A DNA stretch of 35,861 nucleotides from Clostridiales bacterium 38_11 (GTDB lineage: Bacteria > Bacillota > Clostridia > Tissierellales > Dethiosulfatibacteraceae): the NCBI GenBank assembly GCA_001509345.1, contig LGGM01000008.1, forward strand, positions 1 to 35,861, in the 5' to 3' direction. Below, in pieces: positions 24,075-33,815 of the stretch. The stretch's first letter is position 1; each line of letters starts with the position of its first letter. The translations under genes and the position numbers were made by a program. Under the pieces are notes generated by a model. It was given only the letters and a program-made list of their open reading frames with translations, made no database searches and was not told the origin of the DNA.

Positions 24075-24800
24075 ATGAGCTTTGAGGATGAAATCATCGT
24101 ATTAAAAGAGGTCCAGTATAAGGACTATGACAAAATTCTTCAGTGTTTCAGTAAAAAAAACGGGAAAATACAAGTGATGGCCAGAAACGCCAGGAGAGCG
24201 AACAATGAAAACATGTCTGTTGCGCAGATTATGAATCATTCCATAGTCAATATCTATCTGAACAAGGATATGTATATTCTGACGAATGGGTCTGTTATCA
24301 ATCATTTTTATGAGCTACGCAATAATTTCGAAAGCTATGTGTATGGCAACTATATTCTGGAAATCCTGAATCATGTTTTACAGGAGAATGAAAATTACAG
24401 CAAAATTTTCGACATGTCTGTCAAAATACTTCTGATGCTTGTGCATCACCCTGACAAAATGAACTATTTCATTGCCGCTTACGAGATCAAACTCATCAGT
24501 ATCTTGGGATATAAGCCGGAACTGGATAGCTGCAGCCATTGTGGTGGAAACGAGAAGGCATTTCTATTCTCTATCGAAGAGGGTGGGATTGTCTGTAAAA
24601 AATGTACATCACAGCAATTAGGATTGAGTGTTTCGCTTGAAGATATAGCAGCCATCAAGAGCCTGATAGGCACTAGATTCGATGATATCAAAAGTTTGAG
24701 CCATATCAGCAATAGGGCTCTGTACATTATAAATGCCTATTTTAATCATTATGTCGGGAAGGATAATTTTAAATCATTGAAGTTGATTAATAACAAATAA
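24075..24800 (+). CDS. recO: DNA repair protein RecO
   Basis: The 241-residue protein has the N-terminal OB fold (IVLKEVQYKDYDKILQCF), a helical domain, and a zinc site CSHCGG...CKKC (about residues 154-177). RecO helps RecA displace SSB in gap repair. It starts three bases after era with a weak ribosome binding site (GGTG) and probably depends on translational coupling. It ends the phoH operon; I see no strong terminator before the glyS promoter. Confidence 0.93.
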   Translation: MSFEDEIIVLKEVQYKDYDKILQCFSKKNGKIQVMARNARRANNENMSVAQIMNHSIVNIYLNKDMYILTNGSVINHFYELRNNFESYVYGNYILEILNHVLQENENYSKIFDMSVKILLMLVHHPDKMNYFIAAYEIKLISILGYKPELDSCSHCGGNEKAFLFSIEEGGIVCKKCTSQQLGLSVSLEDIAAIKSLIGTRFDDIKSLSHISNRALYIINAYFNHYVGKDNFKSLKLINNK

Positions 24801-24803
24801 TTA

Positions 24804-24832
24804 TTGACATCACCTAATTATGATGGTAGATT
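24804..24832 (+). promoter_or_regulatory. Sigma-A promoter of the glyS T-box transcript
   Basis: A consensus TTGACA and TAGATT are separated by 17 bases. The predicted start near 24839 gives a leader of about 215 bases, as expected for a T-box. Confidence 0.7.
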
Positions 24833-24838
24833 AATGTT

Positions 24839-25039
24839 AATTATACAATGCTGTGATTGAGAAGAGTATTTGGTTTTATAATATAGAGATTTAGGGACGG
24901 TGGAAACCTAATTTGTTGAACTGTAAGAAGGGAGCTCATGAGCATATACTACTAAAGAGGACTTCATTGATGTCAAGTAGGGTGGAACCGCGGAATTTTA
25001 CTTTCGTCCCTATGTTCGGGATGGAAGTTTTTATTTTTT
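24839..25039 (+). promoter_or_regulatory. T-box riboswitch leader of glyS
   Basis: The T-box core AGGGTGGAACCGCGG occurs at 24979-24993. The UGGA in its bulge is complementary to the UCCA 3' ends of both tRNA-Gly genes in this window, including the discriminator base. A Stem I region with AGAAGAGTA (24861-24868) and a distal hairpin TTAGG/CCTAA (24891-24911) precede it. A terminator helix (25000-25028) followed by a T run ends it. Uncharged tRNA-Gly should favour the antiterminator and raise glyS expression. I could not place a convincing GGN specifier triplet by eye. Confidence 0.93.
25000..25039 (+). terminator. Regulated terminator of the glyS T-box
   Basis: The stem ACTTTCGTCCC / GGGATGGAAGT with a seven-base loop is followed by a long T-rich run. 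It is the conditional terminator that competes with the T-box antiterminator. Confidence 0.85.
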
Positions 25040-25053
25040 GAAAGGAGAATCAT

Positions 25054-26451
25054 ATGGCAAATATTCAAAAGAATAATTTGGAAAAAGTGATATCATTATC
25101 TAAAAGCAGAGGAATCATTTTCCCAGGCTCAGAGATTTATGGCGGCCTAGCTAACACATGGGATTATGGTCCGATTGGTGTTGAAATAAAAAACAACGTA
25201 AAAAAAACATGGTGGCAAAAATTTGTGCAAGGAAGCGAATTCAATGTAGGTCTTGATTCTGCAATTCTTATGAATCCGAGAACATGGGAGGCTTCAGGGC
25301 ATGTTGGCGGTTTCAATGACCCTCTGATGGATTGTAAGAATTGCCAGTCAAGATTCAGAGCGGATAAATTGATTGAGGAATTTCTAAGAAAAAAGGAAGA
25401 TCTGGAAACTGTCGTTGATGGCTGGTCGAACACTCAGATGGAAAACTACATACTTGAAAACAGCATACAATGTCCAGAGTGCAATAGCAAAGAATTTACG
25501 AAAATCAGGCAATTCAATCTCATGTTCAAGACCTATCAAGGCGTGACAGAAGGGTCACAGTCTGAAATATTTCTGAGACCTGAAACTGCCCAGGGCATTT
25601 TTGTCAATTTCAAGAATGTAGTAAGAGCATCCAGAAAAAAGGTACCTTTTGGGATAGGGCAAATCGGAAAGTCATTCAGAAATGAAATAACACCCGGCAA
25701 CTTCATTTTCAGAACCAGGGAATTCGAGCAGATGGAGCTGGAGTTCTTCTGCAAGCCCGGTGAGGATCTTGACTGGTACAATTATTGGAAAGAATTCTGT
25801 ATGAACTGGTTGCTGGCTCTTGGCATGACAAAGGAGAACGTCAGATTCAGAGATCACGGTGAAGAAGAGCTTTCACATTACAGCAATGCAACCACTGATA
25901 TTGAGTACCTGTTTCCATTTGGATGGGGTGAATTGTGGGGTATTGCCGATAGAACAGATTTCGATCTGAAGCAGCATCAGGAATTCTCGGGAGAAAGCTT
26001 CAAGTACAAGGACCCAGTTACTAATGAGGAGTATATTCCATATTGCATTGAGCCATCAGTTGGAGTAGATAGGGTACTGTTAGCTTTTCTGATAGATGCC
26101 TATAATGAAGAGGTATTAGAGGATGGGTCAGAAAGGATTGTACTAAAACTGCATCCAGCGCTTTCTGCCTTCAAAGCCGCTATATTTCCACTGACTAAAA
26201 AACTTAGAGATCCTGCTATGGAATTGTTTAAGGATTTGTCTCATTATATCAATGTGGATTATGATGAGGCCGGTAGTATCGGAAAACGGTACAGAAGACA
26301 CGATGAGATAGGAACACCATACTGCATAACATATGATTTCGATTCTCTGGAGGATCACTGTGTAACCGTAAGATTCAGAGATACAATGGAACAAAAAAGA
26401 ATTAAAATTGAGGAATTGACACACTTTATTTTGAAGCAGCTCAAATTTTAG
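25054..26451 (+). CDS. glyS: Glycyl-tRNA synthetase, single-chain (alpha2) type
   Basis: The 465-residue class II synthetase has [20 protein letters not shown] at the N terminus, a cysteine pair CKNC and CPEC forming a probable zinc site, motif 2 SFRNEI, the [17 protein letters not shown] segment and motif 3 GVDRVLLAF, then an anticodon-binding domain. It is the dimeric type shared with archaea and eukaryotes, not the alpha2-beta2 glyQ/glyS of B. subtilis. AAAGGAG lies six bases before the ATG. It is controlled by the T-box leader. The next gene lies 12 bases downstream in the same reading frame. Confidence 0.96.
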
Positions 26452-26463
26452 GGGTGTGATCTT

Positions 26464-27105
26464 ATCAAGTTAACAGAAAGGCAAAACGATATAGTAGAAT
26501 TGGTAAAAAAACATGAACCTGTAACCGGAGAGCAACTGGGGGAGTATCTGAATGTTTCAAGAGCTACCTTAAGACCTGATTTGGCCATATTGAACATGCT
26601 GGGCATTCTGGTTGCAAAACCAAAAGTGGGGTATTTTTATAATGGACCGGGTATTGATTTAGCCATGAAAGAAATTTTTTCGATATCAGTTGATGAAATT
26701 AAATCCAGACCTGTTGTTGTTGATGAGGAAACCACGGTTTATGATGCTGCCGTAACAATGTTTTTAGAGGATGTTGGAACTATCTTTATTGTGAAGGATC
26801 AGTATCTAAAAGGGGTAATCTCGAGAAAGGATCTGCTGAAGGTTACCTTGGGAGGCAACTCGGCAACGACTATGCCTGTATCTGTTATTATGACAAGGCT
26901 GTCTAAGATGGTTTATTGCAGCAAGGAAGATATATTCATTGATGCTGTGAGAAAAATTGTGGACTACCATATTGATTGCATACCGATTGTAATGGAGGAA
27001 GGCCCGGATAAATTAAAAATCATAGGGAGAATCTCTAAAACAAACATTAGCACATATATATTAGGCATCAGCAATCGGGAAAGGGGATATTATGAAAAAG
27101 GTTAA
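26464..27105 (+). CDS. ccpN: CcpN-like transcriptional repressor, apparent ATC start
   Basis: The protein has an N-terminal helix-turn-helix (LTERQNDIVELV...NVSRATLRPDLAIL) followed by two CBS domains, the layout of CcpN, which in B. subtilis represses gluconeogenic genes (gapB, pckA). Homology begins at the codons for KLTERQ, but the frame from the glyS stop to those codons contains no ATG, GTG or TTG. The first canonical start is TTG at 26500, which would delete the first helix of the DNA-binding domain. An ATC at 26464 has AGGGGTG seven bases upstream and gives 213 residues, close to the 212 I recall for B. subtilis CcpN. I take it as the probable start. It overlaps ppsR by 14 bases. Confidence 0.8.
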   Translation: MKLTERQNDIVELVKKHEPVTGEQLGEYLNVSRATLRPDLAILNMLGILVAKPKVGYFYNGPGIDLAMKEIFSISVDEIKSRPVVVDEETTVYDAAVTMFLEDVGTIFIVKDQYLKGVISRKDLLKVTLGGNSATTMPVSVIMTRLSKMVYCSKEDIFIDAVRKIVDYHIDCIPIVMEEGPDKLKIIGRISKTNISTYILGISNRERGYYEKG

Positions 27106-27913
27106 AATTTATGCGCTATCGGATTCAATCGGGGAAACATCAGAACAAGTAGCAAATGCTGTAATGAAACAATTCGATATGATTGATTATCAGATTGACG
27201 TATGGGGATATGCTCAATCTAAAGAAACAATAGACGAGGCAGTCTATTCTGCGAAAAGAGAAAATGCTGTTATTGTATTTACATTGGTGATAGTAGAACT
27301 GAGAGATTATCTGATTAAAAAATCTGCAATTGAAGGTGTGACGGCGGTGGATCTGATTACTCCTTTATTATCCCCTATGATTGAGCATATCGGTCTAATA
27401 CCTAAGCGGAAACCGGGACTGCTACACAAATTTGATGAGAATTATTTCAAGAGAATGGATGCCATTGATTTTGCCGTCAAATATGACGATGGGAAAGAGA
27501 CCAAGGGTGTTTTGAAAGCGGATGTGGTGCTGATAGGGATATCAAGGACATCCAAGACCCCACTGAGCATGTATCTGGCAAATAAGAGCTATAAAACAGC
27601 CAATATACCCCTTGTACCGGAAGTGGAGCCACCTGAAGAGCTTTTTAAGATAAGCCCGGGTAAAATAGTGGCACTTTTCGCTGAGCCTGATTATTTGAAC
27701 CGAATCAGAAAGGAAAGGCTTAAAGCATTGGGATTGAATGACGGATCTTCTTATGCAGATTTAAAACGTATTATAAGGGAATTGGAATATGCAGATCTAT
27801 ATATAAGGAAATTAGGCTGTAGGAAGCTGGATATTACCAATAAAGCTATAGAAGAGATAGCCAGCATTATTATCGGCTGGCAGAGTGATAGTGCAAAAAA
27901 AGAAAGAGAATAA
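27092..27913 (+). CDS. ppsR: Pyruvate, phosphate dikinase regulatory protein (kinase/phosphorylase)
   Basis: The 273-residue DUF299 protein has YALSDSIGETSEQVANAV at the start and the P-loop GISRTSKTPLSMYLA in the middle, followed by ANIPLVPEVEPPEELF. This family phosphorylates (with ADP) and dephosphorylates PEP synthase or pyruvate phosphate dikinase, switching PEP formation. The order ccpN-ppsR (ccpN-yqfL in B. subtilis) is conserved and joins transcriptional and post-translational control of gluconeogenesis. The stop codon lies in the loop of the terminator. Whether the target here is PPDK or PEP synthase cannot be told. Confidence 0.9.
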   Translation: MKKVKIYALSDSIGETSEQVANAVMKQFDMIDYQIDVWGYAQSKETIDEAVYSAKRENAVIVFTLVIVELRDYLIKKSAIEGVTAVDLITPLLSPMIEHIGLIPKRKPGLLHKFDENYFKRMDAIDFAVKYDDGKETKGVLKADVVLIGISRTSKTPLSMYLANKSYKTANIPLVPEVEPPEELFKISPGKIVALFAEPDYLNRIRKERLKALGLNDGSSYADLKRIIRELEYADLYIRKLGCRKLDITNKAIEEIASIIIGWQSDSAKKERE

Positions 27914-27926
27914 CTCTTTCTTTTTA
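27897..27926 (+). terminator. Terminator of glyS-ccpN-ppsR
   Basis: AGAAAGAG pairs with CTCTTTCT around an AATAA loop that contains the ppsR stop codon, flanked by an A run and a T run. It begins inside the ppsR coding sequence. Confidence 0.8.
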
Positions 27927-27955
27927 TATAACCAATAAATGAGGATGTGTTTATT

Positions 27956-28954
27956 TTGTTCAGACAATATCAGGAAGATCTTGAATATAAAATACTGTCA
28001 AAATATGCGGTGAAATCAAAAGAGTCTAAAGGAAGAAAAGTTCCAGAATCGGATTGCGAAATAAGGACTGTTTTTCAAAGGGATAGGGATAGGATACTGC
28101 ATTCTAAAGCCTTCAGGCGATTAAAACATAAAACCCAGGTTTTTTTAGCACCTGAGGGAGATCACTATAGAACCAGACTGACCCATACCCTTGAAGTTTC
28201 TCAGATTTCGAGAACCATTGCAAGAGCGTTGCGTTTGAACGAGGATCTGACAGAGGCTATTTCACTTGGGCATGACCTGGGGCATACACCATTTGGGCAT
28301 AATGGAGAAGATATCTTGGATAAACTGTTGAGTAATGGATTCAGACATTATGAACAAAGTCTGCGTGTTGTTGATTTGCTAGAGAAACATAATGACATGA
28401 ACGGCCTAAATCTCACTGATGAGGTAAGGGATGGCATCTATAATCATACCGGCAACAATAAGCCATATACACTGGAGGCCCAGATTATTAAAGTATCAGA
28501 TAGAATCGCATATCTCAACCACGACATTGATGATGCCAAGAGAGCAGGCATCGTGAATATATCCAATATTCCAGAAGAAATATTGGAAGTATTAGGGCTG
28601 ACCCATGGAGAGAGAATCAATACCATGATTAAGGACGTGATTTATCAGTCATTAGATAAACCGGCAATTACAATGAGCTCTGAAATTCAGAAGGCGACGG
28701 ACCAGCTCCGGGAATTCATGTTCAAAAATGTCTATTTGAATGATATTGCAAAAAGCGAAGATAGAAAAGCTGAAAAAATCATGACGGATCTTTTCCATTA
28801 TTATATGAATAACCTGCGCGATATAGCTTCGAAGGAAGACATAGAGACCTATAGTGGAGAAGAGATAGTCAAGGATTATATAGCAGGTATGACAGATAGA
28901 TTCGCTTTAAAACAATTTAAAGATATCTTTTTACCGCTTCCATGGGACAAGTGA
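27956..28954 (+). CDS. dgt: dGTP triphosphohydrolase-like HD-domain protein
   Basis: The 332-residue protein matches the clostridial dGTPase-like family: FQRDRDRILHSKAFRRLKHK, GDHYRTRLTHTLEVSQI and the HD metal motif LGHDLGHTPFGHNGE. It hydrolyses dNTPs to deoxynucleosides and triphosphate, helping set dNTP pools. I choose the TTG at 27956, giving the usual start FRQYQEDLEY, with GAGGAT about ten bases upstream; an in-frame GTG at 27947 lies too close to that site. No promoter is evident after the preceding terminator, so it may rely on read-through. dgt-dnaG-rpoD is a recurrent Clostridia order. Confidence 0.9.
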   Translation: MFRQYQEDLEYKILSKYAVKSKESKGRKVPESDCEIRTVFQRDRDRILHSKAFRRLKHKTQVFLAPEGDHYRTRLTHTLEVSQISRTIARALRLNEDLTEAISLGHDLGHTPFGHNGEDILDKLLSNGFRHYEQSLRVVDLLEKHNDMNGLNLTDEVRDGIYNHTGNNKPYTLEAQIIKVSDRIAYLNHDIDDAKRAGIVNISNIPEEILEVLGLTHGERINTMIKDVIYQSLDKPAITMSSEIQKATDQLREFMFKNVYLNDIAKSEDRKAEKIMTDLFHYYMNNLRDIASKEDIETYSGEEIVKDYIAGMTDRFALKQFKDIFLPLPWDK

Positions 28955-33456: not shown

Positions 33457-33783
33457 ATGAGCAAGTCGGATAGCTGCATGGAGACATGAGGAAAGTCCGA
33501 GCTTCACAGAGCAGAATGCTGGTTAATGGCCAGTGAGGGTGACCTTAAGGAAAGTGCAACAGAAAATTACCGCCTGAAAAGGTAAGGATGAAAAGGTGAG
33601 GTAAGAGCTCACCAGCGACCAGGTGACTGGCCGGCTGTGTAAACCCCATTCGAAGCAAGACCAAGTAGGGATGTGAAAGCAGCTGCTCGCTGTATCCCGT
33701 GGTAGGTTGCATGAGCCTTTTGGTAACAGAAGGCCTAGATAGATAGCTATCAATAACAGAACTCGGCTTATAGACTTGCTCAT
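33457..33783 (+). ncRNA. rnpB: RNase P RNA, type A
   Basis: The catalytic RNA of RNase P trims tRNA 5' leaders. The ends form helix P1, ATGAGCAAGTC pairing with GACTTGCTCAT. The universally conserved GAGGAAAGTCC is near the 5' end and ACAGAACTCGGCTTA near the 3' end. Internal blocks GGAAAGTGCAACAGAAAA, GTAAACCCC and AAGCAAGACCAA-GTAGGG follow the ancestral type A layout, rather than the type B of Bacillus. Length is about 327 nt. A promoter and a strong terminator flank it. Confidence 0.97.
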
Positions 33784-33784
33784 G

Positions 33785-33815
33785 AAAAAACAACCGCTTT
33801 ATGTGGTTGTTTTTT
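33785..33815. terminator. Terminator shared by rnpB and the ABC-F gene
   Basis: AAAAAACAACC pairs with GGTTGTTTTTT around a nine-base loop, with T runs on both strands. The ABC-F stop codon (33799-33801) lies in the loop, so the hairpin serves both converging transcripts. Confidence 0.88.

Follow-up and report, generated by a model that had tools for sequence, protein, structure and literature searches.

The ccpN gene of the window, i.e. the whole 35,861-nucleotide stretch of Clostridiales bacterium 38_11 DNA that was analysed, has no canonical start codon and, as judged from its orthologues, almost certainly starts at the AUC codon at position 26464. The explanation that we favor with high confidence would combine initiation on this AUC by the initiator tRNA, a long Shine-Dalgarno (SD) sequence placed over the stop codon of the preceding glyS gene, and a low CcpN output. 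The relevant features, all on the forward strand, are the following:

24844 to 25014, forward strand: T-box leader upstream of glyS (presumed glyS-ccpN transcript); Rfam RF00230, 92.2 bits, E 3.8e-21, just under the gathering score of 93
25054 to 26451, forward strand: glyS, glycine--tRNA ligase (dimeric type), stop codon TAG at 26449-26451; NCBIfam NF003211, 680 bits
26450 to 26462, forward strand: extended SD AGGGG-(U)-GUGAUCU, strong and well placed for the ATC, which runs over the glyS stop and has its core AGGGGTG at 26450-26456; RNAduplex pairing with GGAUCACCUCCUUUCU, -16.3 kcal/mol
26464 to 26466, forward strand: candidate ccpN start codon ATC; start-type codon (AUH/AUG/UUG/GUG) at the aligned position in 277 of 279 loci
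26464 to 27105, forward strand: ccpN, 213 amino acids, HTH_11 and two CBS domains; NF053704, 255.7 bits (curated cut-off 260, model named for Bacilli); HTH_11 56.5 bits, CBS 51.3 bits
26500 to 26502, forward strand: TTG, the earliest canonical start-type codon in frame and an annotation trap, use of which would drop the first 12 residues, conserved in relatives
27092 to 27913, forward strand: ppsR-type regulator of PPDK/PEP synthase, overlapping the end of ccpN; PF03618, 313.6 bits; NF003742

The glyS-ccpN junction in the window and its family

The protein read from ATC 26464 was covered by the CcpN model NF053704 at residues 1-202, from profile position 1 onward, and the same model matched all 10 rows of the ccpN alignment A1; the Pfam search located an N-terminal HTH (PF08279) and two CBS stretches (PF00571). 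CcpN represses gluconeogenic genes in B. subtilis (gapB, pckA), and the ppsR/yqfL-type neighbor downstream of the window's ccpN follows the gene order of that species. The surrounding genes form a row of translation and macromolecular-synthesis genes (cdd, era, recO-like, glyS, ccpN, ppsR, dgt-like, dnaG, rpoD), of which profiles identified glyS, ccpN and ppsR, and the remainder was named by eye. Elsewhere in the window, 14 tRNA genes are clustered at the left end (79-1411) and a class A RNase P RNA is located at 33458-33786 (292 bits).

The genes glyS and ccpN lie in one reading frame that continues after the glyS TAG as GGG TGT GAT CTT ATC AAG TTA ACA GAA AGG CAA AAC GAT ATA GTA GAA TTG (26500). 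As an earlier, sequence-only reading had pointed out, this ccpN frame is devoid of ATG, GTG and TTG between the stop codon and TTG 26500, and ATC 26464, which follows AGGGGTG with a spacer of 7 nt, gives a protein of 213 residues. Two GTG triplets within the gap (26454 and 26456) are out of frame, and their reading frames close after 1 and 5 codons, respectively. The same reading was also right that a start at TTG 26500 would cost the helix: IKLTERQNDIVE, a part of the HTH, would be cut out, and the HTH_11 match already begins at residue 6. Translation of an N-terminally shortened CcpN from this codon has in its favor that it is the first ATG/GTG/TTG in frame; it is nevertheless highly improbable, as the conserved N-terminus IKLTERQ..IVE would be lost, in which R6 and Q7 are invariant among the 10 aligned rows and [R/K]Q is present at the expected place in 279/279 loci. 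Moreover, loci with an ATG, TTG or GTG start begin at the ATC column, and none begins later.

The alignment of the junction across related genomes, proposed in the sequence-only reading, spoke against the two alternatives that it had named. In a genome of the same genus (L002; CcpN identity 89%), the junction is identical up to the ATC; in two further genera of the family (L003 and L004; CcpN identity 70% and 69%), it reads TAA GGG TGT GAT CTT ATT AAA and TAA GGA TGT GAT ATT ATC AAA, respectively, and the partial copy of another family genome (L189) shows the same junction type with an ATA start. The family thus uses ATC, ATT or ATA at this position, behind a glyS stop codon that is TAG in the window and L002, and TAA in L003, L004 and L189. 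With the junction found again in L002 and in L003, L004 and L189, all of the same family, chance or a read error as the source of the odd ccpN start is, on this comparison, excluded. An error of sequencing or assembly, or decay of the gene, might have been suspected from the draft state of the assembly and from the single extra base that, relative to many relatives, shifts a GTG out of frame; the chance of either is negligible, since L002 and L003 carry identical bases and L004 and L189 a comparable junction, all four being separate genomes, and since the remaining ccpN frame is intact and closely similar to the same-genus copy. Read-through of the glyS stop codon into a GlyS-CcpN fusion, perhaps subsequently processed, is very unlikely, despite the common frame of both genes: the stop codon alternates between TAG and TAA among the relatives, no PylS above the family cut-off was detected in the genome (sub-threshold matches only, as in most of 14 control genomes), and in most relatives ccpN is not located directly in frame behind a window-like GlyS, yet exhibits the same SD and start column.

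The start column across Clostridia and Bacilli

For a broader comparison, ccpN loci of the order, the class and the phylum were combined with those of named genomes and anchored on the invariant RQ motif, which resulted in a set of 279 distinct loci of Clostridia and Bacilli. In the column of ATC 26464, the codon is ATC in 84, ATT in 68, ATA in 64, ATG in 31, TTG in 24, GTG in 6 and another codon in 2 loci; thus, AUH codons (ATC/ATT/ATA) occupy the column in 216/279 and ATG/TTG/GTG in 61/279 loci. The feature is not peculiar to this genome, and all three AUH codons are used in orthologues. Where the column does not encode isoleucine, it holds ATG, TTG or GTG in 61 of 63 cases (97%); in 15 other variable, Ile-rich columns of CcpN that served as control, these three codons make up 8-48% of the non-Ile codons. 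An internal isoleucine would be expected to drift to GTT, GTA, CTT or TTA as in the control columns, which argues for a start codon instead. On a protein tree built with this residue left out, this one position changed between AUH and a canonical codon at least 20 times. According to these codon patterns, the column of ATC 26464 shows the behavior of a start codon in the Firmicutes sampled.

The sole two loci with a non-start codon in the column are L273 (GTC) and L279 (TTC); L279 possesses an ATG one codon upstream of the column, and L273 a GTG and an ATG three and four codons upstream. Among the AUH starts, ATC is over-used (84 observed versus 36.9 expected from the Ile codon use of the same genes, a figure uncorrected for ancestry).

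Non-canonical starts in bacteria are usually dismissed as oddities or annotation errors; the ccpN position has kept AUU, AUC or AUA in some three out of four loci sampled across Clostridia and Bacilli, and changes to or from ATG, TTG or GTG have occurred repeatedly at that exact codon. For annotators, this implies that ccpN is likely mis-started in many genomes, either at a GTG within the SD or at a TTG that lies too deep inside the gene.

Shine-Dalgarno pairing and the upstream GTG

The 3' end of the 16S rRNA was searched for in this draft genome and not found; pairing energies were therefore calculated with an assumed standard anti-SD. The usual 16S 3' end has AGAAAGGAGGUGAUC as its complement. 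A counterpart of the window's SD is conserved in the relatives, and the median SD energy of AUH starts amounts to -14.9 kcal/mol. In 153/216 AUH loci, a GTG is positioned exactly three codons 5' of the AUH codon; this upstream GTG, which a gene finder would pick, is the GTG of the SD itself (AAAGGGGTGATC) and lacks an SD of its own. Where AUH has a canonical codon at most four codons upstream (157 loci), the SD serving the AUH codon had a median of -15.1 kcal/mol, and the sequence strictly 5' of the canonical codon reached -5.9 kcal/mol, near the background before internal Ile codons of -5.1 kcal/mol. In 48 AUH loci, there is no in-frame ATG, GTG or TTG back to the stop codon; in 23 loci, the GGTGA of the SD falls in frame and puts a TGA three codons ahead of AUH.

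Minor initiation at GTG may occur in those species that carry it three codons upstream (the 153 loci above); in the window it is impossible. The stretch from SD to start is one base longer in this family than in many relatives, which places the GTG out of frame and leaves ccpN intact; judged by these reading frames, a GTG start is impossible in this lineage, which is one of the natural experiments of this kind. Initiation at GTG 26456, which is out of frame, with a subsequent -1 shift that restores the ccpN frame, could be proposed from the five-codon frame GTG ATC TTA TCA AGT TAA and from the relatives with an in-frame GTG nearby. This detour is scarcely conceivable: the GTG sits within the SD, many other lineages with an AUH start lack it or have it in another frame, and no slippery heptamer for a -1 shift was seen by eye.

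Two further ideas are not put forward. That SDs become stronger in evolution at AUH than at canonical starts seemed apparent from the raw medians (canonical starts: -11.6 kcal/mol; p 4e-15) and was not significant after correction for relatedness (approximately 4.5 pairs for and 1.6 against; median p 0.375). A tie between the AUH start and glyS adjacency is not proposed, as many AUH loci are not directly behind a window-like GlyS.

Proposed mechanism and comparison with known non-canonical starts

For AUC initiation at 26464, the following course is proposed. The initiator tRNA, presumably carrying fMet, would read the AUC to begin CcpN, and the long SD pairing across the glyS stop codon would recruit the 30S subunit to it; the poor codon-anticodon match would hold initiation down, so that little repressor would be made despite the place of the gene in a translation operon. 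As the SD begins within the glyS stop codon, terminating ribosomes could re-start on the AUC, and ccpN translation may thus be coupled to glyS termination. A CcpN level that is low and tracks the state of translation initiation would be the likely role of this arrangement, as in S. aureus.

The T-box upstream of glyS contains an exact core GGGTGGAACCGCG at 24980-24992 (0 expected by chance) and is accompanied by a hairpin resembling a terminator at 25000-25028; in L003 and L189, the core motif likewise precedes ccpN, at approximately the same distance of 1.5 kb. The pattern scan of 24700-28000 returned a single terminator-like site, which belongs to the T-box; co-transcription of ccpN with glyS is therefore probable, and in the window's family ccpN would answer to glycyl-tRNA charging; the T-box would then place ccpN under glycyl-tRNA control. 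Tentatively, and with considerable doubt, the AUH starts of ccpN and infC might be regarded as an old control group of most Firmicutes, in which the level of the gluconeogenesis repressor is set by the initiation state (IF3, formylation of the initiator tRNA, or the supply of one-carbon units); in the window's family, the glycine T-box on glyS-ccpN would tie the repressor a second time to glycine/one-carbon status.

A start of this kind has been known since 2026 from S. aureus and B. subtilis (PMC13009471): the AUA start of S. aureus ccpN was mapped by a Ribo-Ret peak and a luciferase reporter by Kohl et al. 2026, its output relative to AUG was approximately 10% in poor medium and rose to as much as 30% in rich medium, and a non-canonical ccpN start with extended SD was reported as common to B. 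subtilis. New are its reach through Clostridia as well as Bacilli (the 216 of 279 loci above), the use of three AUH codons, the codon-column test and the lineages that rule out a GTG start. The S. aureus and window genes are alike in orthology, AUH start and extended, start-proximal SD; they differ in the codon (AUA versus AUC) and in the window's bulged U, its SD overlap with the glyS stop and its out-of-frame GTG. Of the proposals in the sequence-only reading, initiation at AUC 26464 is strongly supported by the orthologue comparison together with the S. aureus Ribo-Ret and reporter results (PMC13009471), and scarcity of the repressor is supported for S. aureus by the output of 10-30%, by analogy with which a low CcpN output would be expected in the present organism. 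Kohl et al. 2026 (PMC13009471) also suggested a link between one-carbon metabolism and the ccpN start; this idea and that of an IF3 effect become testable in organisms free of the confusing GTG. In S. aureus, cvfC1 (AUU) and citZ (AUA, NCTC 8325 lineage) share AUH initiation (approximately 10% of AUG in poor medium; PMC13009471), and cvfC1 also the extended SD; unlike S. aureus ccpN, these unrelated genes are narrowly conserved and show little or no medium effect.

The comparison with infC (AUU), likewise drawn in the sequence-only reading, holds, as both genes display an AUH start (AUU/AUC/AUA in infC) behind a strong SD: infC of this genome has an ATT after GGGAGGTG (-14.1 kcal/mol) and reads GGGAGGTGTAATT ATT AAG. 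This infC (L209:1478-1500), in full ATG GGA GGT GTA ATT ATT AAG, has a likely AUU start; its in-frame ATG lies immediately 5' of the SD, overlaps it and could mislead annotation. In E. coli, infC controls itself through IF3. In contrast to this self-controlled gene, ccpN encodes a metabolic repressor, and a dependence of ccpN on IF3 may be supposed by analogy with infC.
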